From a virus: a stretch of 64,000 nucleotides of DNA. Made by a program: the position numbers and the translations under genes. Positions 28,163 to 59,583 of this stretch are shown here, piece by piece. The notes beneath the pieces were generated by a model. That model made no database searches. It was given only the letters and a program-made list of their open reading frames with translations, and was not told where the DNA came from. The first letter of the stretch is position 1, and every line of letters begins with the position of its first letter. The stretch spans positions 1-64,000 of IMG/VR virus record IMGVR_UViG_3300031963_000102, one strand, 5' to 3'.

Positions 28163-28184
28163 TCTAGTTATCAGGCATGAATGA
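28163..28184 (+). repeat. Conserved leader and start context, copy 1
   Basis: TCTAGTTATCAGGC followed by the start ATGAATGA is identical at 29704-29725, in front of the second gene of the trio. No Shine-Dalgarno sequence other than CAGG is present. This is a shared translation or regulatory context kept after gene duplication. Confidence 0.6.
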
Positions 28185-29697
28185 CAAGCTACGTTCTCAG
28201 CTGAGAACCATCATCCTTGCTGAGATAACAAAGTATCAGAAAGTAATGGGACAAGAGTTTCCTCGTTGGAAAGACCAGCTTGCGAAGCATGTCGACCAAG
28301 GAAACTTCGTGACTTTCACGGACATACCTGAGTTGAGCTTGAACCCTGTAAACAGCTATAGCACACCAACAGGCATCTACTGCTACGAACTAGCGACAGG
28401 TAAGATGTCAGGTTTCGGTACAACCAGACCATATGCTATCGTGTTCAGACCAAAGCCAGGGTTGAACATTCTGAAGCTCGGGGAATACTCGGAAGCACAG
28501 TTCGATGCTGACGCCAAGAAGTTGGAGACAGCTTTCACAGATGAAGACCTAGGTCCAACAGGGCCAACAAGACGCATGTACAAGCGCATGGCTTCCGAGA
28601 ATCCAGGAAGAGCGATATGGCATTTGACCGAATCATACTCTGAAAAGATACAACACGACAAGTATTACAAGTCATTGAACAATCCACGCAAGACTACTCC
28701 GGATGTTAGGAACGTGCCTCAGTCTGGAGAGAACGAGTGGACAAAGCTTTTTCTGAACGTGTTGGGATACCATGGAGTTATTGACCCAGGACTGTCCATC
28801 ATTCACGAGAACGAACCAGCACAAGCTGTGTTTTGGCACGCAGGGCTGCTTCAAGTTGTTGAATTTGTTCAGAAGAGCAGGAAGGGCTGGTCAGCCGACC
28901 ACCAGAACGAAAAGAACCCAACCCAGCAGAACCTCACGGCTTTCAAACAAGCCATAAATAGCGGAACAGTTGAAGGGTTGACATGGCCCGAGTTGTTGCC
29001 GTTCGACAACAAAACAGTCAAGAACGTCAACTTCAAGCACAGCGTGTTCACACCGAAGTCTATGGCTGGCTCAACCTTCGAGAACGTGTCCTTCATCGAC
29101 ACGGCGTTCTGGGCGTTCGGCTCGAAGGGTGCAGAGAACTGCACATTCAAGAATGTCAGAGCGGCATCAAGCGATCCGGATTCCTTCTTGAAGTTCTTGG
29201 GAAGACAAATAACCAACTGCACCTTCATTGATGTGCATGCGACTGGGTTTGCTCCGGGCAAGATCGTTGGGTCCAAGATAACCAACATGTCATTCTCAAA
29301 CGTCGCCAGTCCCAGGTCGGATGTTGTGACTTACGGTCTAGACACTATCAACGGTTTGCTGTTCTCCAAGTGTTTGTCCTCGAAGTTGAGGATGCAGTTC
29401 TCGGAAGGCTTAGCGAAGAACGTTGTGTTTGAAGGGTGCGAGCTCGGAGAGCTCTACATTTCTGAACAAGGGTTGTTCGACGCAGCGTTCAAGGACACCA
29501 CAATCAAGAACGTGTACTTGCACGGAGAACTACAGCTCAACAACGTTGACTTCACAGGGTTGAAGGTGTTGGGTAAGTTCTCTATGATTGTTGGAAACGA
29601 CTCGGTCATCAACAACGTCAAGCTCACAAGAGAGCTCTATGACAAGTTGGAAGCGGCAGAACCTATCAAGGCTAGACTCACCGTTGTTGATGGATGA
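28177..29697 (+). CDS. Trio protein 1: unknown N-terminal domain plus pentapeptide-like beta-helix
   Basis: 506 residues. Residues 11-70 include IILAEITKYQKVMG and LNPVNSYSTPTGIYCY. Residues about 84-95 read YAIVFRPKPGLN. Near 196-215, YHGVIDPGLSIIHENEPAQA is followed by VF. From about residue 270, short FxxxxF/Nxx repeats (TFENVSFIDTAF, NCTFKNVRA, NCTFIDVHA) form a pentapeptide-like right-handed helix to about 450. The GYxGVxD...EPxQAVF arrangement recalls the last strands of ADP-ribosyltransferase-fold domains, but no catalytic triad is certain. Two paralogs follow in tandem. Confidence 0.6.
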   Translation: MNDKLRSQLRTIILAEITKYQKVMGQEFPRWKDQLAKHVDQGNFVTFTDIPELSLNPVNSYSTPTGIYCYELATGKMSGFGTTRPYAIVFRPKPGLNILKLGEYSEAQFDADAKKLETAFTDEDLGPTGPTRRMYKRMASENPGRAIWHLTESYSEKIQHDKYYKSLNNPRKTTPDVRNVPQSGENEWTKLFLNVLGYHGVIDPGLSIIHENEPAQAVFWHAGLLQVVEFVQKSRKGWSADHQNEKNPTQQNLTAFKQAINSGTVEGLTWPELLPFDNKTVKNVNFKHSVFTPKSMAGSTFENVSFIDTAFWAFGSKGAENCTFKNVRAASSDPDSFLKFLGRQITNCTFIDVHATGFAPGKIVGSKITNMSFSNVASPRSDVVTYGLDTINGLLFSKCLSSKLRMQFSEGLAKNVVFEGCELGELYISEQGLFDAAFKDTTIKNVYLHGELQLNNVDFTGLKVLGKFSMIVGNDSVINNVKLTRELYDKLEAAEPIKARLTVVDG

Positions 29698-29703
29698 CAG
29701 AGC

Positions 29704-29725
29704 TCTAGTTATCAGGCATGAATGA
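29704..29725 (+). repeat. Conserved leader and start context, copy 2
   Basis: The same 22 bases as at 28163-28184, ending in ATGAATGA at the start of the second trio gene. Identity outside the coding region suggests recent duplication including the leader, or selection on it. Confidence 0.6.
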
Positions 29726-31307
29726 ATCTCAACGCCTTCAACTGAAGGCCATCATACTTGCTGAAATCAACAAGTACCAGAGGGTCACGGGTCAACGGTT
29801 TCCTCGCTGGAAGACCAAACTCAACCAGTACGTTGACAAGGGATACTTTGTCACGTTCACCTCTGTTCCAGAACTCAGTTTGAATCCTGTCAACGACTAC
29901 AACACTCCAACAGGCATCTACAGCTATCAGTTGGCAACAGGAAACAAAGTTGCTGACTTCGCAACGAACAGACAGTATGCTATCGTGTTCAAGCCGAAAC
30001 CAGGGTTGAACCTGTTGAACCTTCAGAAGTACAACCTAGGACAGTACGATGCTGACAAGCAGAAGCTGTTGAAGCTTTTGCCCGATCCAATGGTTGCTGG
30101 GTTCATTGAGGAAGCAGAAGAGAATGCCAAGGTTCAGAGCTACGGCGGTTATCTCTGGTACGTTACTCGTGCGATAGCCAACCAGCTAGAAAAGCACAAG
30201 GAAACCGCCAGAAGGAACAACACGGGCGAGATGTCGGTAAAGGACAAGAAAAAGGCTGTGTGGAATGACACTTCTCATTTGCAGCGTGTCATTCCGATAG
30301 ATGCGGCGAACGAGTGGACAAAGATACTCCGAAACACTCTGGGATACCATGGGGTAATCGATGAAGGTGACGGAATCATTCACTCGCACGAACCCGCTCA
30401 AGCCGTGTTCTGGGAGTCCAGGTACCTTGCCACAGTCGAGATGATTGAGAAGGAAAAGACCGAGTGGAGCCCAGACACACACTATGAACAGAACGACACC
30501 GAAGAGACACTAACAGCCTTCCGAATGCAGCTGAAGGCCGGAACAGTTGAAGGTCTCACATGGCCTTCGGACATACCATTCAAGGGCAAGACTTTGAAGA
30601 ACGTGACTCTTCGAAACGCTGCGTTCAGGCCGTCAACGATGGAAGGTGCTACTGTGCAGAACGTAAGGTTCATGAACAGTAAGTTCGGAGTTGCCAACGC
30701 CTACGAAGGCTTGTACAAGGCTACACTGAGCAACGTGTCCGTTCAACTCGACAAGGCATCGTCTTCCAACCCGATGCTCGGGGACAGGGTGGATACATGC
30801 AAGCTAGAAAACATCCATGGCAAAGGGACAGCTCCCATGGGTAGGATATATCAAACAACCATCAACAACTTGTCTGTTGAAGACTTCTATCTACAATCCC
30901 GATTGATCTGCACGCTTCACAAGTGCAACGTCGACGGGTACATGATGAAGGGATGTAGCTCCATGTCCTATAACTTGGAGTTCGAGGCGTCCACAATAGA
31001 AAACCTTGTGATAGACGACTGCAAGCTTGGAACGGTACACTTTGACACGTCGTACCTTACCGACGCAGTGTTCAAGGACACAAGGCTCGACTTCTTGGTG
31101 CTGGTAGCTACTAATCTTACCAATGTCGACCTGACAGGACTAACAGTAATTCATGCGCTTCGTGCTTTGCGCTATAATGCCGCATCAGTTGCCAAAATCC
31201 ACAACGTCAAGGTCACAAGAGAACTGTTCAACAAGATAGACGGTCCCGAAGAGTTCAAGAGCAAGCTTACCGTCGTCGATGCTCCTGCCACTTCGCCTGC
31301 AGTCTAG
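29718..31307 (+). CDS. Trio protein 2: unknown N-terminal domain plus pentapeptide-like beta-helix
   Basis: 529 residues. It is clearly paralogous to the previous gene: ILAEINKYQRVTGQRFPRW, LNPVNDYNTPTGIYSYQL, YAIVFKPKPGLN, YHGVIDEGDGIIHSHEPAQA. The beta-helix repeats run from about residue 290 (TLKNVTLRNAAF, TVQNVRFMNSKF, TIENLVIDDCKL). The linker between the halves has a charged insertion around residues 160-200. The stop lies 41 bases before the third copy. Confidence 0.6.
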   Translation: MNESQRLQLKAIILAEINKYQRVTGQRFPRWKTKLNQYVDKGYFVTFTSVPELSLNPVNDYNTPTGIYSYQLATGNKVADFATNRQYAIVFKPKPGLNLLNLQKYNLGQYDADKQKLLKLLPDPMVAGFIEEAEENAKVQSYGGYLWYVTRAIANQLEKHKETARRNNTGEMSVKDKKKAVWNDTSHLQRVIPIDAANEWTKILRNTLGYHGVIDEGDGIIHSHEPAQAVFWESRYLATVEMIEKEKTEWSPDTHYEQNDTEETLTAFRMQLKAGTVEGLTWPSDIPFKGKTLKNVTLRNAAFRPSTMEGATVQNVRFMNSKFGVANAYEGLYKATLSNVSVQLDKASSSNPMLGDRVDTCKLENIHGKGTAPMGRIYQTTINNLSVEDFYLQSRLICTLHKCNVDGYMMKGCSSMSYNLEFEASTIENLVIDDCKLGTVHFDTSYLTDAVFKDTRLDFLVLVATNLTNVDLTGLTVIHALRALRYNAASVAKIHNVKVTRELFNKIDGPEEFKSKLTVVDAPATSPAV

Positions 31308-31348
31308 GATACCCGTTCCTGCCCCTATACGCCCCAACAGAGCCATCC

Positions 31349-33013
31349 ATGAACAAGAACAACCTAACCCTCAAGCAAGCACTGAAGTCGATTGTACTGG
31401 CAGAGATAACCCGCTACAAGAAAGAGATGGGAGTGCAGCCACCGAACTGGTCAGCAAGACTGAATGTCTATGCCAACCAGCCCGGATACTTCATGACCTT
31501 CGTTTCCATTCCGAAGCTGGGCATCAACCCTGTGAACACGTATGGAACTCCTACCGGCATCTACGCTTACCCTATCCTTCAAGGAACGGACAGCGATTTT
31601 GCCAGAGAGAAGAAGTACGTCATCGTGTTCAAGCCCAAACCAGGAGTGAAGCTGTTGAGTATGCAGGAGTACACAGAAGAACAGCTGACGGCTGACATCA
31701 ACACACTCTGGAGCAAGTATGCCAAGGTGTTCTCGGAAGAAATGGCTATGCCAAGCATTTCTCATGTGCTGGCCAGAGCAAAAAAGGATGCAATTGTTGT
31801 GGCCAAGAAGGCTCAGAGCATAAGCTATCTGTGGTTCGTGACAAGGTGGTTGGCCATCTCAACGAACAAGCTCAAGTACGGCAAGAAAGCAAAAGAGAAG
31901 GCGGGAAGCGATGACGGCTGGAACGACAACTGGCAAGAAGAGAACCCAAGGAAGATTGAAGCCGTAGCTCCAAACGAGTGGGCAAGAATACTTCGTAATG
32001 ACTTGGGCTATCAGGGTGTTGTTGACATGGGCTATGGATTGATTCATGAGAGCGAACGCTATCAAGCCGTGTTCTTCTCTGCATCTACCCTGGACACTGT
32101 TGAGCTCATTCAGAAGCCGTCAGAAGAGGACAAGCCAGGAACGCCAACATACATCGTTCCTGGCGAAGAAACGAAGCAGCTTCACGCCATGGTTGCCGCA
32201 GGACAAGACTTGAAGGAATTCCCTGTAAACTTCAAGGTGAGCGTCCAGAACTTCTCAGGCAAGACCCTGAAGGGGCTCACAACCACAGATAAAGATGGCT
32301 TTATCTACGGCAACACGTTCCAGGGTTCGAGCCTTGTTGGTTGGAGATTCAAGAGCGGAACCTTCGCCGCCAACAACCTGCGAAGCGCCAAACTCAAGAA
32401 CGTAATCTTCGGTGGCCAGGAACAAGGTCAGGGCATGAAGCTCTACAGAAACAAGTTCATCAACACAACGATGGATGGTATATCTCTTCATCACGTCAAC
32501 GTGAACTCTGACACGTATGGAGGCTCTGCTATATCCAACTTGGGCGTTATGGGTTCGTACTTTTCAAACGCCAACATCAGAGGTGCAAAAATCAACAGCT
32601 TCACCGTAAGCGAAACAACCTTCGGTGCTTGCGACATTGAGTTGTCAACATTTAGCAACGGTGAGTTCTTTACTTGCCAGTTCAGAGATATGTCGGCAGG
32701 CTCAACACATGATGCAACCAACGGCATCAACTGCTCGGACGTAAAGTTCAAAAACACCAGCTTTGGCGACTGCTACTTCAGATTCTTGTCGGCAACGAAC
32801 GTTGTGTTCGAAGGGTGTATTTTCAGTGGAGGCAGCCTTGTGTTCAACGGCGACGTGTCAACCGTCAAGCTCTCGAACGTTGCTTTTATCAACAAAGTGT
32901 CAATGCACCAAGACACATACGACAAGCTGTTGGCTAACAATCCCGAGCTGGAAGAGGCTAAGGCCGAGAAGGGCATTGTAACGTACAGCCTAAAGGCTAA
33001 AGCAACTGGTTGA
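31349..33013 (+). CDS. Trio protein 3: unknown N-terminal domain plus pentapeptide-like beta-helix
   Basis: 554 residues, the most diverged of the three. It keeps IVLAEITRYKKEMG, INPVNTYGTPTGIYAYPI, YVIVFKPKPGVK and GVVDMGYGLIHESERYQAVF. Here the EPxQ position reads ERYQ. The helix part has KLKNVIFGG, DVKFKNTSFGDCYF and NVVFEGCIFSGG. The leader differs from the other two genes. Its 3' end overlaps the 3' end of the convergent minus-strand gene by 17 bases, leaving no room for a terminator between the two units. Confidence 0.6.
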   Translation: MNKNNLTLKQALKSIVLAEITRYKKEMGVQPPNWSARLNVYANQPGYFMTFVSIPKLGINPVNTYGTPTGIYAYPILQGTDSDFAREKKYVIVFKPKPGVKLLSMQEYTEEQLTADINTLWSKYAKVFSEEMAMPSISHVLARAKKDAIVVAKKAQSISYLWFVTRWLAISTNKLKYGKKAKEKAGSDDGWNDNWQEENPRKIEAVAPNEWARILRNDLGYQGVVDMGYGLIHESERYQAVFFSASTLDTVELIQKPSEEDKPGTPTYIVPGEETKQLHAMVAAGQDLKEFPVNFKVSVQNFSGKTLKGLTTTDKDGFIYGNTFQGSSLVGWRFKSGTFAANNLRSAKLKNVIFGGQEQGQGMKLYRNKFINTTMDGISLHHVNVNSDTYGGSAISNLGVMGSYFSNANIRGAKINSFTVSETTFGACDIELSTFSNGEFFTCQFRDMSAGSTHDATNGINCSDVKFKNTSFGDCYFRFLSATNVVFEGCIFSGGSLVFNGDVSTVKLSNVAFINKVSMHQDTYDKLLANNPELEEAKAEKGIVTYSLKAKATG

Positions 33014-33722
33014 GAGAGTCTTCGAAGCCAACCTTCTTGCTGAACCTGCTCTCTTCAATGACTCCTGGCAAGTAGAACCCTGTGATGGCAACAGGACCGA
33101 AGCTCATCACTTCGTACTCTTTCCAGCCTTCTGTTTCGTTCTCGTGCCCCAACAGCACAGCAAGAGATGGGTTGCCAAAGAGCTTGTTGCTCTTGTTTGA
33201 AGTCTCGGCGGTGAAGATAACAGGAACAACGCCGGTAATAGGGGCGTTCTGCTTGTATGCATACACTCTGGCAAACTCAACAGCAACTTTCGGAGACGTA
33301 GTCCAACTCTGAATGGGAGAGCCTGCTTCGCCTTTCGGCGTCAACTTACCAACCAGGGAAACCTTTCTTGGTTGTGACCTGTTCTCAGAAGCATACCAGT
33401 CATCCAGAGACGGAACACCTGCCTTCTCTAGCATGGGTGCCAGCTGAGCAACATCAATACGTATGCCCCTGTAGATAACGACACCTTCAGGTGGTCCCAG
33501 AAACCTCTTGTAGTTGCCTAGCTTTACTTGTTTCAGAATGTCTGGTACCTGTTGGACCAACGGCATGTCACGACGAGAGCTGTTGTAGTGGCCATCCAAG
33601 GCCGTATACAAGTCATCTTCTTTCTTCGTGTTCGGTTCATCCGGAAGGCCCTCTTCCTTTCGAACAGGAGCAAACAGGTATTGCCCGAAGATATCATCTG
33701 GTTTTGCTTCCGGAGATGTCAT
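32997..33722 (-). CDS. ADP-ribosyltransferase 3 of 3 (R-S-ExE type)
   Basis: 241 residues. The arginine-specific ADP-ribosyltransferase triad is visible: VVIYRG with R85, SWTTSPKVAVEFA with T142/S143, and KEYEVMSFG with E202-x-E204. T4 Alt, ModA and ModB belong to this class and modify host RNA polymerase and other proteins with NAD. The N-terminus PEAKPDDIFGQYLF is shared with the next two genes. The start overlaps the upstream gene's stop (ATGA). It is the last gene of the long minus-strand unit. Confidence 0.75.
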   Translation of the reverse strand: MTSPEAKPDDIFGQYLFAPVRKEEGLPDEPNTKKEDDLYTALDGHYNSSRRDMPLVQQVPDILKQVKLGNYKRFLGPPEGVVIYRGIRIDVAQLAPMLEKAGVPSLDDWYASENRSQPRKVSLVGKLTPKGEAGSPIQSWTTSPKVAVEFARVYAYKQNAPITGVVPVIFTAETSNKSNKLFGNPSLAVLLGHENETEGWKEYEVMSFGPVAITGFYLPGVIEESRFSKKVGFEDSLNQLL

Positions 33723-34420
33723 TCTAGCCCCAGCACTCTCAAGTCAGAAACATCGAACTTGTACATGCTATAGCCGCCAGCGTTGACAACGGGAGCTATC
33801 ACAATCTTGTCGTAGATGACCGTTCCGTAGCTCAGCGTTTCTCTTTCGTCATCGATGTCTGGGTTCAGTGTGTCGTATACCTTCGGATTCCCGAGGAACA
33901 TGTTCCCTCGCCTCGCAGGGTTAGCAATGAACAACACAGGAATAGTGTCGCTTGACCAAGCTGTCCAACCTGAGAACGTAATAGCGATTTCCGGACTCAT
34001 GGACCAACCCTGAAGAGGAGACTTCACAGGTTCCATCTTGCCCGGACCAACGATGATTCGTGCTGGTGTTTCATCTCCTGTCAGCTTGAACTGTTGTTGC
34101 AGCGTAGGCAGCTTCTTCTTTTTCAGCAAGGCGTCAATCTTCGTCCTGCCAATGTTCAAGCCTCTGTATACCATCATCTTGGGTGGAGCCAACAGGGGCT
34201 TGTACTTCCCAGCTTTCAACAACGCAAACAACTCAGGCATCCGTTTCGCCAACGCCGGTTTCTTGTTGTCTTCGTAGTATTCAATGAAGTCGCCGCCAAC
34301 ACTGTCTTCTTCAGCCGTGTTGTCTTCCACAGCCTTGATGTCCTTCCTGTCATTTGCAAACAGGTATTGACCGAAGATGTCGGTCGGTAACGCTTCTGGT
34401 TTTGGTGTTGTCTTTGCCAT
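33719..34420 (-). CDS. ADP-ribosyltransferase 2 of 3 (R-S-ExE type)
   Basis: 233 residues. Motifs: MMVYRGLNI (R86), LQGWSMSPEIAITFS (S140/S142) and DERETLSYGTV (E192-x-E194). The N-terminus carries LPTDIFGQYLFANDRK, matching its two neighbours. An acidic linker (VEDNTAEEDSVGGD) separates this tag from the catalytic domain. The aligned triad in all three copies suggests each is active rather than decaying. Confidence 0.75.
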   Translation of the reverse strand: MAKTTPKPEALPTDIFGQYLFANDRKDIKAVEDNTAEEDSVGGDFIEYYEDNKKPALAKRMPELFALLKAGKYKPLLAPPKMMVYRGLNIGRTKIDALLKKKKLPTLQQQFKLTGDETPARIIVGPGKMEPVKSPLQGWSMSPEIAITFSGWTAWSSDTIPVLFIANPARRGNMFLGNPKVYDTLNPDIDDERETLSYGTVIYDKIVIAPVVNAGGYSMYKFDVSDLRVLGLE

Positions 34421-34436
34421 GATGACTGTGTTTCCT

Positions 34437-35144
34437 TCAGAGTTGCTGGGCTAGCTTTACGAGCTCATCTGTATCCATTGATGAAAAATTAGCAAAACTC
34501 GGCTCGTAGACGTACGTTCGAGGCAACAGAAACCCGTCAATCTCAACGTTCCCATAGCTCAAGACTTCTTGCTCATTTGCAACGGCGGGAGAAATCGTTT
34601 TTGTGAGCACAGGGTTTCCGAAGAACTGGTTTCCTTGTGCGTTGGTTCTAGCAACGAAGATAACTGGCGTGCGATCTCGCCCGCTCTGCGGGATTCCCAC
34701 GCCCGAGCTAAACGTCATCGCTATACCCATGGAAAGTGTCCAACCCTGAATCAATGATGTCGTTGGTCTTAGTTTCCCTGGAATGTCGATGGCCATGTAC
34801 TTTTTTGCTTGTCCGGAATTCCTGTACTGGTCAATGGTCTTGTACCCGTACTTGACCAGAATCTTGTCAAGCATGGACTTCTGAACATTGAGCCCTCTGT
34901 AGACGATAGCATCAGGAGGAGCCAGCAGCGCTTGATAGTTCCCGGCTTCGATTTGCTTGAGAACATCCGGAACCATGGCCTGAACTTGAAGCTTGCTGTT
35001 GTTTTCGTAATAGTTCTTCAAGGCATCCCTTAGTTTCCATTCCGGCTCTGTGTCCAGTTCCTTCACCTTGCTGAGCTCTCGACGGTTTCTCGGAAACAAA
35101 TACTGTCCGAAGATGTCATCTGGTTTTGCTTCTGGAGTTGGCAT
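34437..35144 (-). CDS. ADP-ribosyltransferase 1 of 3 (R-S-ExE type)
   Basis: 235 residues. Motifs: AIVYRGLNV (R83), IQGWTLSMGIAMTFS (T136/S138) and NEQEVLSYGNVEI (E181-x-E183). The start is MPTPEAKPDDIFGQYLFPRN, nearly identical to the 32997 gene (PEAKPDDIFGQYLF). It follows the ParB-like gene by 15 bases and precedes the second copy by 16 bases, so the three form one operon. Confidence 0.75.
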   Translation of the reverse strand: MPTPEAKPDDIFGQYLFPRNRRELSKVKELDTEPEWKLRDALKNYYENNSKLQVQAMVPDVLKQIEAGNYQALLAPPDAIVYRGLNVQKSMLDKILVKYGYKTIDQYRNSGQAKKYMAIDIPGKLRPTTSLIQGWTLSMGIAMTFSSGVGIPQSGRDRTPVIFVARTNAQGNQFFGNPVLTKTISPAVANEQEVLSYGNVEIDGFLLPRTYVYEPSFANFSSMDTDELVKLAQQL

Positions 35145-39733: not shown

Positions 39734-39933
39734 AGCTCCTCCATGTCCTCCAAGTCAGAGCACCATATCGATATACGCTCAACGATGCCACGGCTGGGAA
39801 AGAACGCATGACAGCCATTGACATATGGCTTGTTTAGACTGTCATGACCTGCCAGCGCACCCAGCGATATGAGAACGAAACAGATGGAATGGTTGTTTTT
39901 GCTCCTGTAGAGCTTCCCTGGTTCTAGCTTCAC
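39730..39933 (-). CDS. PGKLYR-family small protein, first of a sub-operon
   Basis: 67 residues from a GTG at 39933. KLEPGKLYRSKNNHS, CFVLISLGA, PSRGIVERISIW, ending DLEDMEEL. It is the first gene after a strong promoter at 39945-39973. The predicted transcript starts only about 5 bases upstream of the GTG, so there is almost no leader. Confidence 0.7.
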   Translation of the reverse strand: MKLEPGKLYRSKNNHSICFVLISLGALAGHDSLNKPYVNGCHAFFPSRGIVERISIWCSDLEDMEEL

Positions 39934-39944
39934 GTTCTGTGTCT

Positions 39945-39973
39945 AGTATATCAGCTGCAGCCGTGATTATCAA
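39945..39973 (-). promoter_or_regulatory. Promoter TTGATA-17-TATACT, near-leaderless
   Basis: On the minus strand TTGATA (39973-39968), a 17-base spacer and TATACT (39950-39945) precede the GTG at 39933. The block GAAATAATGG lies directly upstream of the -35. It matches the recurring promoter class of this window. Confidence 0.7.
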
Positions 39974-39981
39974 CCATTATT

Positions 39982-40242
39982 TCATGAGCAAACAACCAAC
40001 TTGAACACGCTGCTGAGTTCGTGCTCGTAATATCCCCACGTTCGAACAACACCATCACTTTCAAGGAAGTAGTATATGTTGCAACCAAGGCTGCTCTTCC
40101 ATGGTTCCGAACGCAAGTATACTGAAAACACTTGTGCGTCTGTGTTCCAGTACAGCTTTCCAGGCACAAGCGTATGTCCATGTTGAATACGGACTATTCG
40201 AACACCTGGAGCTGTGTGTGCTGTCTTCGAAGACTTCTTCAT
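39982..40242 (-). CDS. PGKLYR-family small protein with N-terminal extension
   Basis: 86 residues from ATG 40242 (ATGA). About 30 residues (MKKSSKTAHTAPGVRIVRIQ) precede LVPGKLYWNTDAQ. The core VFSVYLRSEPW and LESDGVVRTWGYY follow. The end LSSVFKLVVCS lacks the DWE motif. The promoter of the next gene begins only 8 bases after its stop. Confidence 0.65.
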   Translation of the reverse strand: MKKSSKTAHTAPGVRIVRIQHGHTLVPGKLYWNTDAQVFSVYLRSEPWKSSLGCNIYYFLESDGVVRTWGYYEHELSSVFKLVVCS

Positions 40243-42528: not shown

Positions 42529-42713
42529 AGGTCAGAAATCCGAATCCACTGCCAGCCAAAGTGGGTGGTGGAGTATGTTTTTCCGTTCTCGTCCAGGACA
42601 TCATACCCTCCCAGGGCATTGAACGACAGAATCATTCGAATTTGTGATGTGTTGTAGCTGTTCTGATAGACAGCACCAACAACAAGGAAATCTTTCACGT
42701 CGAATCCTTTCAC
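42519..42713 (-). CDS. PGKLYR-family small protein (LVVGAVYQNS type)
   Basis: 64 residues from a GTG at 42713, forming a GTGA overlap with the upstream stop. A longer frame is open but runs into the neighbour. KGFDVKDFLVVGAVYQNS, IRMILSFNALG, LDENGKTYSTTHF, ending WIRISDLWP. Both ends are diverged. Confidence 0.6.
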   Translation of the reverse strand: MKGFDVKDFLVVGAVYQNSYNTSQIRMILSFNALGGYDVLDENGKTYSTTHFGWQWIRISDLWP

Positions 42714-42907
42714 GTCGCAAGCTCTTCCCAGAACTTCCGGACCATTTGTATCTTCATCATCTCGCCCTTGTCGTTGATAACCCAGCACATCGGCAGCCCA
42801 GGATTGGAGTATGCAGGGATTATCTCCAGCACAAGGACCGTCCAGGGAAACTCGGTGTTGCCGTAGAGCTTCCCAACCTCGATGCCGGAGTGAGACTGAA
42901 CCTTCAT
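42710..42907 (-). CDS. PGKLYR-family small protein, leaderless start
   Basis: 65 residues from ATG 42907: MKVQSHSGIEVGKLYGNTEF, VLVLEIIPAYS, NDKGEMMKIQM, KFWEELAT. The promoter -10 TATACT ends 6 bases before this ATG, so the predicted transcript begins at the start codon. A GTG at 42913 is also open but would lie within the promoter. Confidence 0.7.
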   Translation of the reverse strand: MKVQSHSGIEVGKLYGNTEFPWTVLVLEIIPAYSNPGLPMCWVINDKGEMMKIQMVRKFWEELAT

Positions 42908-42913
42908 GAACAC

Positions 42914-42942
42914 AGTATATCAGTTGTGGGGGCGAATATCAA
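42914..42942 (-). promoter_or_regulatory. Promoter TTGATA-17-TATACT, leaderless
   Basis: On the minus strand, TTGATA (42942-42937), a 17-base spacer and TATACT (42919-42914), then GTGTTC and the ATG at 42907. The block GGAATAATGG touches the -35. It is the best example of the recurring class. Confidence 0.75.
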
Positions 42943-43892: not shown

Positions 43893-44115
43893 TCTGTTCC
43901 CTCACCGCTTCGGAAACAAGACTACAACAGCCGATCCCGGTACCAACTTCTATGGAGAAAACTCCAACCCTGCCTGCGAGTGTGAGGATTTTGCACCGAT
44001 AGCGGCCCCATTCTTCCACCTTCAATTCCAAGACAAGAAAGATGAAGGTGGTTTCGCCGTCTTCATCTTCGAACCATTTCCACAGTTCTCCTGGTTCTGG
44101 CTTCGTGGCACTCAT
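43885..44115 (-). CDS. PGKLYR-family small protein (PEPGELWKWFE type)
   Basis: 76 residues, coupled by ATGA to the lipoprotein gene upstream. MSATKPEPGELWKWFEDED, TFIFLVLELKVEE, LAGRVGVFSIEV, ending LVSEAVREQNE. Coupling to the lipoprotein shows that the latter is transcribed with the array. Confidence 0.65.
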   Translation of the reverse strand: MSATKPEPGELWKWFEDEDGETTFIFLVLELKVEEWGRYRCKILTLAGRVGVFSIEVGTGIGCCSLVSEAVREQNE

Positions 44116-45065
44116 CGCCCAAACACTTCAACTTCCGCAAGGTTGAGCACTCGGTCATCAGCTCCGAGCCTTCCCATTCTCAGGAGATTGATTCGAACAT
44201 ATCGAGCAGTTCCAGAGACTTCGTGAGTGCTGGGATACACAGGAGGGTCGACGTTTTCCGCAACCCTGGTCCACACCACACCATCAAGCGACACTTCGAC
44301 AACATAGTTCTCGTTGGAATATGAGAACCGCAAGGGACGGACAGGCCAGCCAACACGGTTCCACACGTTGACCCTTGTGATGGTTCTCTCGGAGCCTAGG
44401 TCAACACGAACCCAGGGAGCAATATCATCTCCACCCCGAGCCGTCTCGATCCAGTTGGTTCGAACACCATCGAACGCAAGGTTTGCAGGGTACAGATCAA
44501 ACGTTCCACCGTTGCAAGTCACGTCCGGACGAGCACTTTCCGAACACGAGCTCAGCAAGGCCGGTCTTCCTCGGCTCAACAGCACCGAAGCAGGAGTTGC
44601 ATCGACCGCAACCACATCGGGAGAAGCATCCGAAGAAGCTTCCGGCGCTGCATCCACAACAGCAACCGAGCCTTCGTCGGTTGCCACATCCGTTGCAGCG
44701 TCACGGCCACCTTCAGCAGCAGCCTCCACATCGAACACAGAGGCGTCAGGAGAGGAAGCGTCGCCAGCGTCGACCATCGCATCGACAACATCGACGGAAG
44801 CCTCTGCCGTGTCTCCTGGAACGTCCTGAGCGGTGTCTTGAGTCACCACGTCAGCAGGAACGGGAGTGCCGGTGTCGGGAGCAGCTTCGGGCGAAGCATC
44901 CCGAACGACGGGAACGCTGGTCTCGTTGCCACCGTCGGCAACAACGGGAGCGCTGTCTTGATCGATGGTTGGGCGAGCATCCTCGAAAGGCGGTTCCATC
45001 TCTGTGCCACAACCCACCATGAGGGCCGTGAGAACCAGGAAAGAAAAGCGAGTTCGGAGGTTCAT
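44112..45065 (-). CDS. Lipoprotein with Asp/Ala-rich linker and discoidin (F5/8 type C) domain
   Basis: 317 residues. MNLRTRFSFLVLTALMVGC is a lipoprotein signal with Cys19 as the likely lipidated residue. Residues about 25-165 are an Asp/Ala/Val/Pro linker (DASPEAAPDTG and similar), probably extended. Residues about 168-316 form a discoidin-like galactose-binding fold: LAFDGVRTNWIETA, PWVRVDLGSERTITRVNVWN, VVEVSLDGVVWTRV, ARYVRINLLRMG, LAEVEVFG. Such proteins are typical of Myxococcota cell surfaces. The gene is visibly more GC-rich than its neighbours, suggesting acquisition from a host. A surface role such as superinfection exclusion or adhesion is inference. Confidence 0.75.
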   Translation of the reverse strand: MNLRTRFSFLVLTALMVGCGTEMEPPFEDARPTIDQDSAPVVADGGNETSVPVVRDASPEAAPDTGTPVPADVVTQDTAQDVPGDTAEASVDVVDAMVDAGDASSPDASVFDVEAAAEGGRDAATDVATDEGSVAVVDAAPEASSDASPDVVAVDATPASVLLSRGRPALLSSCSESARPDVTCNGGTFDLYPANLAFDGVRTNWIETARGGDDIAPWVRVDLGSERTITRVNVWNRVGWPVRPLRFSYSNENYVVEVSLDGVVWTRVAENVDPPVYPSTHEVSGTARYVRINLLRMGRLGADDRVLNLAEVEVFGR

Positions 45066-45115
45066 GTCTGTGTTTCCTTTTGGACTGTGTTCTTCTGTGT
45101 CTCAGCTACAGATAC

Positions 45116-47892: not shown

Positions 47893-48936
47893 TCACGGGT
47901 TCAACTCCTGGATACGTTCTGCATAGAACGATTGAAGGGGTTCAGAGATTCCTCTCCACATGCTGTCTTTCGGCATCAAGGTTTGTCCTGGCTGCCCGAT
48001 GTTGTCAACGTCGATATGCTGCCCTCTTCTTGCACGCTTTCCAACCATGAGCACAGGGGCGCAAGGCTTGGCGTTGGAAAGCGCCCGCAAGTGCTTCAAC
48101 ACCGTTGACTCGGCGAGTTGGCAGCGCTCCGCACACAACCGCACGTTGATGATGGCCATGAGCGGCTGCTCGTTGATGTAGTTGATGACCCCAGCCATTC
48201 CGGGCGTTGCACGAAGAGAAGGCTTCACCTTCTTGTGCTTCTTGGGCTGCTTGACTTTCGAAGCTTCCACGAACTGAGTCACGAACAGAACCCAGTTGAT
48301 GATGGTCTGGGAGTTGATGGTGCCTTGGTGCTGGCGAAACTCGATGGTCCCGTGTGTGTGCAGGGATTGCAAGTTCACCTTGAAGTATCGGTAATTGTCG
48401 GCGCTGTATGACGAACGCCTTGGGATAAGCTCTTCTTTGGTCTCGGCTTCCGGATTCCAGATAAGCGTGCCGAGCGCTTGACAGAACTCGTTTACGTCAC
48501 CCCTTCTGTTGGGTGTGAACATCTTGTCGATCTTGTCTTCGAACTCTTCGTAACGGCGGAAAACTCTCTTCACGTCTTCAACCGTGAGTTCGCTGGCATC
48601 CACATGCACATGGAAACCACAGGTAGGGTTCACCCTGCATCCAAGGGCCTGCAAGGCGAGAGCAATCCTACGAACGGTCTTGATGTCTTCAGGGTTGGTA
48701 GTGTCCAGAATGGGGGACACAAGCTCGTAGTCATAGAACTGGTCAGACACGTAGTCGGTTGGGTCAGCATCGGGCTCATAGTTGATTGAGCCGTCTTCGG
48801 TAAGCCTCCAATAAGGCTTAGCCTTGCACTTGGGCTCGCCAGGACGAACATCGAAGCCTTGCGCCTTCAATGCGTTGCATAGCTGTGCGTTATGCAGCCT
48901 GTCCGAGTAGAACTCCAGTTCGATGCCGAATCTCAT
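47893..48936 (-). CDS. Putative amidoligase (Amidoligase_2-like) with C-terminal helix-turn-helix-like part
   Basis: 347 residues from ATG 48936. MRFGIELEFYS opens the domain, CGFHVHVDAS lies at residues 106-115, and TIEFRQHQGTINSQTIINW follows after residue 200. These are the motifs of the putative amidoligase family, related to glutamine synthetase and glutamate-cysteine ligase, which join amines to carboxylates using ATP. The last 100 residues contain MAIINVRLCAERCQLAESTV and LKHLRALSNA, resembling a winged-helix element. The -10 of its promoter lies 6 bases before the ATG, so the mRNA should be leaderless. The substrate is unknown. Confidence 0.7.
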   Translation of the reverse strand: MRFGIELEFYSDRLHNAQLCNALKAQGFDVRPGEPKCKAKPYWRLTEDGSINYEPDADPTDYVSDQFYDYELVSPILDTTNPEDIKTVRRIALALQALGCRVNPTCGFHVHVDASELTVEDVKRVFRRYEEFEDKIDKMFTPNRRGDVNEFCQALGTLIWNPEAETKEELIPRRSSYSADNYRYFKVNLQSLHTHGTIEFRQHQGTINSQTIINWVLFVTQFVEASKVKQPKKHKKVKPSLRATPGMAGVINYINEQPLMAIINVRLCAERCQLAESTVLKHLRALSNAKPCAPVLMVGKRARRGQHIDVDNIGQPGQTLMPKDSMWRGISEPLQSFYAERIQELNP

Positions 48937-51816: not shown

Positions 51817-51872
51817 GGGTTTGCTGAGGGGTTGGGGTAAGGTAATATAAGAGCACTCATAGCGCATATACC

Positions 51873-51901
51873 TTGATTATAGAGGGAAGGTATGGTAGAG
51901 T
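51873..51901 (+). promoter_or_regulatory. Promoter TTGATT-17-TAGAGT, leaderless
   Basis: TTGATT (51873-51878), 17 bases, TAGAGT (51896-51901), TGCTCT, then ATG at 51908. CATATACC precedes the -35. The -10 is weaker than in the minus-strand copies but the geometry is the same. Confidence 0.6.
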
Positions 51902-51907
51902 TGCTCT

Positions 51908-52315
51908 ATGAGTTCAACGTCAAGCACAGAACAGCATGAATCATCAGGAGGCATCTCCATGCAATCGGATGAAAGCCTACAAGAGATTATGAAGAGGTAT
52001 CGGTCTTTACACGGGAAGCTGTATGACCTTACGGGTAGGAAGCTGGTATACCTTTACCAAAGCCAAGGCAACTCTCTGTCAAGTACGTACCATGGAACAT
52101 ATCCAATCGCCGGAGCATACGGCGAGGGACTTGTTGTGCTTGTGCGTACCGAGTTGGTTTCTGTTACTACTGGAGGCTACGTTGTTGGGATGGTCTTCCT
52201 GGACTCGAACGGACATCTAACACATTCGTTTATAGTACCCCACTCTTCGTATCTGCTTGACAAGCTTGAAGTGTGCGTTCATGGGGAAGCACTAGAATCA
52301 TGCATGATATCATGA
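51908..52315 (+). CDS. Long PGKLYR-family protein, 135 residues
   Basis: After about 32 Ser/Gln/Glu-rich residues, HGKLYDLTGRKLVYLY matches the first motif. GEGLVVLVRTELV is the central strand and LDSNGHLTHSFIV the turn. The end (LDKLEVCVHGEALESC) lacks DWE. It is the first gene of the right-hand plus-strand region, behind a leaderless promoter, and is coupled to the next gene by ATGA. Confidence 0.6.
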   Translation: MSSTSSTEQHESSGGISMQSDESLQEIMKRYRSLHGKLYDLTGRKLVYLYQSQGNSLSSTYHGTYPIAGAYGEGLVVLVRTELVSVTTGGYVVGMVFLDSNGHLTHSFIVPHSSYLLDKLEVCVHGEALESCMIS

Positions 52316-55810: not shown

Positions 55811-55843
55811 CAAATGCACGAGTAGCGGTCTAGCAAATATTCC

Positions 55844-55872
55844 TTGGCTTCGAATATTCTCCATGGTAAGGT
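55844..55872 (+). promoter_or_regulatory. Promoter TTGGCT-17-TAAGGT with leader
   Basis: CAAATATTCC touches TTGGCT (55844-55849), then 17 bases, then TAAGGT (55867-55872). The next gene starts 49 bases farther, after an AGGAAGAG ribosome binding site. This is a leadered variant with a weak -10. Confidence 0.5.
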
Positions 55873-55920
55873 GATTGCAGTCAACGCAACTCCTAACTCA
55901 GGAAGAGACACACACAAGCG

Positions 55921-56196
55921 ATGTCAAGCACACTAACTAACAAGCTCAGAGCTCTGAAGGCCATGTATCAACTGGCAAGAACAGCCTTGGTTGCACCAGA
56001 ACAGAAGCCGCTGGCAGAACCAAAGTCAACGGATCAGTGTTGGGTTTCCGATTGCGAAGACTGTCAAAAGCTCCGGAGACCATGCTGTTCTTATCATGAC
56101 TTGCCTTGTCATGAGTGCAGAGCACAAGCGAAGCCGTGTTCGTACGTGTACGGTTGTTCAACCCTTGCAGACAAGGACTGCGGAGAGCCTCAGTGA
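55921..56196 (+). CDS. Cys-rich small protein
   Basis: 91 residues. A helical start (TLTNKLRALKAMYQLARTAL) is followed by ten Cys in 50 residues: CWVSDCEDCQ, CCSYH, CHEC, and CSYVYGC. The spacing suggests two zinc sites. It is coupled (GTGA) to the first of five family genes that also end in Cys clusters, which hints at a shared metal-related role. Confidence 0.6.
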   Translation: MSSTLTNKLRALKAMYQLARTALVAPEQKPLAEPKSTDQCWVSDCEDCQKLRRPCCSYHDLPCHECRAQAKPCSYVYGCSTLADKDCGEPQ

Positions 56197-59554: not shown

Positions 59555-59583
59555 TGCTATACTGTGGTCTATGAGCAAAGGTC
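59555..59583 (+). promoter_or_regulatory. Promoter TTGAAA-17-TATACT region, leaderless (-35 at 59535-59540, -10 at 59558-59563)
   Basis: AGATTATTCC touches TTGAAA (59535-59540), then 17 bases, then TATACT (59558-59563), GTGGTCT and ATG at 59571. The -35 overlaps the upstream stop codon. The gap to the ATG is 7 bases. Coordinates given here centre on the -10 and start codon. Confidence 0.7.

Follow-up and report, generated by a model that had tools for sequence, protein, structure and literature searches.

Leaderless middle and late genes, virion genes included, are a feature of Thermus phages. The middle promoters of phage T4 involve sigma70, AsiA and a MotA box which substitutes for the -35 element, and the mRNAs are leadered (in part, PMC7403470). 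Leaderless mRNAs accompanied by changes in IF2 and IF3 have been described for phiYS40, a large Thermus myovirus (PMC3594737), and the middle and late promoters of the Thermus phage P23-45 are of the extended -10 type (PMC7403470). In many bacteria, leaderless genes carry a TANNNT signal some 12 bp ahead of the start codon (Zheng et al. 2011, PMC3160421), and this signal is also found at the leaderless genes of Deinococcus-Thermus (PMC12340547).

The DNA considered here, the window, spans positions 1-64000 of an IMG/VR virus record of 69,731 bases; both strands and the 5.7 kb past the window end were read. This 69.7-kb contig contains 11 copies of one promoter family, which consists of a nine-base box, TTGANA, 17 bp, and an extended -10 element (TGn plus TANNNT). 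The family resembles phiYS40 and P23-45 in that leaderless phage transcripts would form a defined class and the -10 is extended. Two differences from the Thermus systems are that the class is missing from the structural block and that each promoter includes a box, a -35 element and a fixed 17-bp spacer; contigs of this lineage are unrelated to Thermus phages and are not Thermus-like. As in the bacterial leaderless genes, the first T of TANNNT lies exactly 12 bp before the ATG in seven of the 11 copies (13 bp in one more), but the bacterial signals are cellular and in Deinococcus often depend little on other elements, whereas here a full viral unit of box, -35, TGn and -10 is repeated. The likeness to T4 middle promoters is a repeated composite upstream element which, with the -10, would define a pre-late class. 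The -35 is not replaced by a T4-like MotA box: a TTGANA -35 is present and the consensus holds no TGCTTTA-type box. UP-element-assisted sigma70 promoters also have an A/T-rich element adjoining the -35, but the putatively UP-like box of the window ends in a conserved S-S at the -35 and has an invariant TA at -41/-40.

Architecture of the promoter family

The 11 copies and one doubtful site are listed below. Scores are from a matrix that spans the box to the -10 and excludes the ATG; GKLY denotes a family of small paralogs described in the last section.

39933..39982, minus strand: promoter AAATAATGG-TTGATA-17-TATACT; predicted +1 at 39938, 5-nt leader, GTG start at 39933; 38.2 bits
42907..42951, minus strand: promoter GAATAATGG-TTGATA-17-TATACT-6-ATG; predicted leaderless start of GKLY-family gene 42710-42907; 39.7 bits
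45065..45153, minus strand: promoter GAATATTCC-TTGTGT-17-TATACT; predicted +1 at 45109, 44-nt leader; 36.6 bits
48936..48980, minus strand: promoter GAATAACCG-TTGAAA-17-TATACT-6-ATG; predicted leaderless start of Amidoligase_2 gene 47893-48936; 35.7 bits
49270..49306, minus strand: doubtful site, TTGACG-18-TATAAC-6-ATG; no box, TG out of register
51864..51910, plus strand: promoter GCATATACC-TTGATT-17-TAGAGT-6-ATG (51908); 29.6 bits
52662..52708, plus strand: weakest copy, AGATAATCC-TTGACT-17-TAAAAC-6-ATG (52706), 30-codon ORF, T of TGn missing; 24.6 bits, leave-one-out rank 4
55835..55921, plus strand: promoter AAATATTCC-TTGGCT-17-TAAGGT; predicted +1 at 55879, 42-nt leader, ATG at 55921; 30.4 bits
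57612..57658, plus strand: promoter GAATATTCC-TTGACA-17-TAGGAT-6-ATG (57656); GKLY-type gene; 32.0 bits
59526..59573, plus strand: promoter GATTATTCC-TTGAAA-17-TATACT-7-ATG (59571); GKLY-type gene; 34.1 bits
61203..61249, plus strand: promoter GAATAATGG-TTGAGA-17-TATTCT-6-ATG (61247); 100-aa protein with a weak zf-FCS match; 36.5 bits
66131-66166, plus strand: eleventh copy, past the window end; ATG at 66166; found by matrix and pattern

A preliminary description of the window had proposed a recurring promoter at eight sites where an ATG follows the -10 directly and at three with a longer gap. The proposal was borne out more strongly than it was put, as seven of the eight sites and all three longer-gap sites (with leaders of 5, 44 and 42 nt) belong to one family. 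These 10 of the 11 listed sites align without gaps as a single element (box, TTGANA-like -35, 17 bp, TANNNT), and in each of them the nine-base box is joined directly to the -35. Other details required revision. The spacer, given as 17-18 bp, has a constant length of 17 bp across the 11 members; 49270, the only site with 18 bp, is doubtful on account of that spacer, its TTGACG and TATAAC hexamers and the lack of a box. A -10 is present in all copies but is better described as TANNNT than as TATACT. The gap of 6-7 bases to the ATG holds at most of the listed sites, with 7 at 59571, although the ATG at 51908 competes with an in-frame ATG at 51959 which is preceded by a GGAGG Shine-Dalgarno sequence and constitutes an alternative start.

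The sigma70-type arrangement TTGANA-17-TANNNT is found in 11 of the 11 copies. The TTG of the -35 and the box T at -41 and A at -40 are invariant, and the T, A and final T of the -10 are kept in 10 copies. Two features had been overlooked, namely the TGn of the extended -10 (T in 10 of the 11, G in all) and the initiator, with a pyrimidine at -1 in every copy and a purine at the predicted +1 in 10. Since Y(-1)R(+1) is also present at the leadered copies, it points to the predicted transcription start without reliance on the ATG. The ATG lies on the predicted RNA start in eight of the 11 copies (one with the 7-base gap), and the other three have leaders.

A matrix scan of the complete record separated the 11 sites (24.6-39.7 bits) well from the background, where the next position scored 16.5 bits; the maximum over 60 dinucleotide shuffles was 16.3, so the equal frequency at random positions that the preliminary description had named as counting against the motif was not seen. 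In leave-one-out scoring 10 of the 11 sites outscored every non-training position, and a separate, independent count of pattern matches found 10, compared with 0 in the reversed control. The window sites had been picked partly by their ATG, which would favor a chance motif chosen by eye. The copy at 66131 lies beyond the window and was not seen when the sites were picked, and therefore serves as a blind confirmation; sites in independent relatives (see below) were found without using the ATG, which removes the selection bias. Based on the shuffles, the leave-one-out test, the blind site and the relatives, a chance origin was rejected, its likelihood being vanishingly small.

The 11 sites head two arrays of small overlapping genes, one on the minus strand (33-49.3 kb) and one on the plus strand (51.9-69.7 kb), where genes were called with the authors' own simple caller and intergenic gaps are short (23-58 nt). 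Within the operons, small genes are preceded by clear Shine-Dalgarno sequences (median -5.05 kcal/mol versus -2.5 for random), whereas those of promoter-first genes equal random in strength (P 0.87) and are weaker than those of other small genes (P 0.002). The predicted 44-nt leader that begins at 45109 has an AAGGA Shine-Dalgarno sequence ahead of the gene at 44112-45065 on the minus strand.

The sole perfect TTGACA-17-TATAAT in the contig is at position 7563 of L024 (record 67563, plus strand), inside the DNA ligase gene and upstream of the next small-gene array; it has no box in register and no ATG at +1.

Conservation of the start-codon phase in relatives

A search with the baseplate wedge protein identified more than 200 relatives. 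Those whose baseplate protein is 71-73% identical include G027 (260,466 bases) and G019 (122,895 bases), both incomplete contigs, which are syntenic with the window over the structural block and have the same promoter plan. An iterated matrix that ignored the ATG found 64 sites in the relatives versus 0.8 in shuffles. Their consensus is an A/T-rich box ending in CC, TTTAGA, WWWTC, TGn, TATTCT and a strong Y(-1) A(+1). The -10 is thus extended in these 64 sites (T of TGn in 100%, G in 98%) as it is in the window genome. The promoter class was absent from relatives found through a head protein (31-34% identity).

The ATG is exactly at +1 in 39 of the 64 sites, with none one base to either side (P about 4e-52). 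Only 10% of these 39 genes have a strong Shine-Dalgarno sequence (-4 or better), against 13% at random, while the 16 leadered copies (12-53 nt) serve as a positive control, with a Shine-Dalgarno sequence in 94%. The proposal that the start codon sits at the transcription start is therefore supported, since Shine-Dalgarno sequences are missing exactly where the ATG occupies this offset, both here and in the window genome. The choice between the two states is conserved, being the same in nine of 10 ortholog groups; the exception is a MnmA-like gene, which lacks a leader in G027 and has one in G019. Orthologs of the amidoligase gene in both relatives have the same promoter and the same start, and would be leaderless in all three viruses.

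It is conceivable that tight packing just happens to bring an ATG to +1, the true starts being downstream codons led by Shine-Dalgarno sequences, and the short intergenic gaps and the GGAGG-led ATG downstream of 51908 fit this idea. Packing would scatter the ATGs around +1, however, and they are confined to it. Catalytic domains begin within a few residues of these ATGs (Amidoligase_2 at residue 2, Metallophos and tRNA_Me_trans at residue 3), and the N-termini of most ortholog pairs align from residues 1-3. These observations make incidental placement highly improbable. The ORFs that start at the +1 ATGs in relatives have a median of 121 codons versus 16 for random ATGs, and in most cases an in-frame stop, usually a TAG or TGA belonging to the promoter itself, lies 6-42 nt upstream.

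Across the viral collection, a strict form of the relatives' pattern matched 16 stretches with an ATG at +1 versus two with a 3-nt shift, one of which is ATGATG. Contigs G050-G054 had been selected by a match with the 6-base gap, and their gap counts were excluded as independent evidence. A degenerate pattern run against all viral contigs and bacterial genomes matched mostly unrelated canonical promoters, the bacterial matches falling mostly in Clostridia, and such matches were rejected as a means to identify the host.

In unrelated contigs (L422-L537, with five matches in L479 and four in L482), canonical TTGACA-TATAAT promoters repeat an ATG at +1, and AATAATGC is often found ahead of the -35. 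Among other canonical promoters, 32 of 147 have the 6-base gap in contigs listed by that gap versus seven of 111 in contigs listed by a gap of 9, so leaderless promoters characterize some phages but not all. Judged from such sequences, arrays of leaderless promoters may be widespread among environmental phages.

Proposed recognition of the promoter and translation of the transcripts

The best reading, with a probability of roughly 0.82, is that the family is a sigma70-type, non-late promoter class which yields leaderless mRNAs. An A/T-rich box fused to the -35, the extended -10 and the fixed 17-bp spacer would make up a sigma70-type promoter. A sigma70-type holoenzyme would bind it and start transcription 7 nt after the -10 at the Y(-1)R(+1) initiator. 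In most copies +1 would be the A of the ATG of the first gene, which makes the mRNA leaderless at its 5' gene; that gene would be translated by 70S-type initiation at the 5'-terminal AUG, while later genes of the operon and genes that follow a 12-53 nt leader would use Shine-Dalgarno sequences. Both promoter recognition and leaderless translation are assumed to be within the capacity of the host, whichever bacterium that is. The leadered genes of the class and the plausible leadered start downstream of 51908 count against this reading.

The class is presumably transcribed by host RNA polymerase, perhaps aided by a phage factor. Searches of six records for a Sigma70_r4 or an RNA polymerase Rpb2_6 domain gave no match, which makes the host holoenzyme the simplest assumption. 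Alternatively, and possibly, though we hold this tentatively, a phage activator or an appropriated sigma factor, comparable to T4 MotA/AsiA, reads the box and -35 region, and the element is a middle promoter rather than a plain host promoter. The TTTAGA of the relatives is a poor match to sigma70 and, together with the conserved WWWTC and strict TGn, resembles activator-plus-extended -10 promoters and leaves room for such a factor. Canonical TTGACA/TATAAT pairs are nearly absent (one in the window contig, none in 383 kb of two relatives), and the extended -10 class of P23-45 offers a precedent. On the other hand, the -35 of the window is close to TTGACA, the box is A/T-rich with a register that drifts between viruses, as would that of an UP-like element, and no activator gene and no relative of MotA or AsiA was assigned among the genes examined, nor was there a Sigma70_r4 match in the six records.

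The box could instead be an operator or stoperator of a phage repressor that overlaps ordinary promoters, a suggestion prompted by the palindrome GGAATATTCC, which is perfect at some sites. The palindrome is not conserved, however, as other copies have GAATAATGG or ATAATCC and the relatives retain only an A/T-rich version. Every copy is phase-locked to the -35 and -10, and a scan of the contig found no free-standing box plus TTG without a -10. The operator reading was rejected on these grounds and is improbable.

Genes served by the promoter class

No copy was found by the matrix scan in the structural block of the window (1-33 kb), and the regions that contain the syntenic block in G027 (52.4-101.7 kb) and G019 (42.1-99.5 kb) are likewise empty, in agreement with the earlier remark that structural genes lack the signature. 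A search of the structural block for a second promoter class found no clear motif. Promoter-driven genes overall include those for DNA polymerase III alpha, ligase, amidoligase, tRNAs and small paralogs. Apart from the amidoligase gene, the genes predicted to be leaderless in G027 include those for DNA polymerase III alpha, an RNase T-type exonuclease, an ATP-dependent DNA ligase, a GGACT protein and a calcineurin-like phosphatase, and two promoter copies in the relatives precede tRNA genes. The DNA ligase is 62% identical in G027 by tblastn; a pattern scan of viral contigs for the ligase matched no relatives and missed the G027 gene. The G027 polymerase gene (150763, minus strand), predicted to be leaderless itself, encodes a bacterial-type enzyme with PHP, NTPase and finger domains, and an apparent ortholog is found in G054 at about 16109 (minus strand).

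This content of replication enzymes, tRNAs and small non-virion genes fits the proposal that the promoter defines one temporal class. Judged by these genes and by its absence from the structural block, the class probably marks transcription before the late stage (early or middle). As it also serves leadered genes, leaderlessness is a sub-design within the class and not its definition.

At least 59 tandem paralogs of 60-110 aa (F-x-P-G-K-L-Y ... V-L ... G-x-V ... W), the GKLY family, extend from window 37643-64000 to record 69547 and fill most of the non-structural half; two relatives contain 11-14 more. An alignment of 39 members has a mean identity of 17%, and the motif was absent (0) from the reversed-sequence control. 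None of the 39 matched a PHROG, and those tried against Pfam gave no significant match. A confident AlphaFold model (pLDDT 90) predicts a five-stranded fold, whose best matches in the PDB were mostly SH3/Tudor-like barrels, none of them significant.

Among these paralogs, under its own leadered promoter, lies the gene at 44112-45065 (minus strand) for a putative lipoprotein with a GCGTE lipobox, a D/A/P-rich linker and a C-terminal F5/8 type C domain. It resembles myxobacterial lipoproteins, possibly a hint of the host and no more. Three other tandem paralogs (506, 529 and 554 aa) lie at 28177-33013 on the plus strand, facing three tandem 'DIFGQYLF' proteins (241, 233 and 235 aa) at 32997-35144 on the minus strand.

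Leaderless phage mRNAs in Thermus phages and TANNNT-led leaderless genes in bacteria are known already. The new finding is a full promoter that recurs in an uncultured large myovirus lineage, with a conserved choice between leaderless and Shine-Dalgarno starts and exclusion from the structural block. The class was not reported in the literature searched, in which subscription papers were thinly covered. A further idea, which we consider unlikely, is that the lineage encodes a dedicated transcription factor for the promoter and biases host translation in favor of initiation at a 5'-terminal AUG, so that a conserved pre-late regulon that includes DNA polymerase III alpha would run on leaderless mRNAs, with Shine-Dalgarno-led genes of the same class and late genes handled separately.

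Across a wide group of uncultured large myoviruses, the promoter provides a sequence-only marker of a putatively non-late regulon, and it establishes start codons which Shine-Dalgarno-dependent gene finders may miss. One promoter class carries two mutually exclusive 5'-end designs that are conserved gene by gene. The reason why a phage would express its DNA polymerase and ligase from leaderless mRNAs also becomes open to test.
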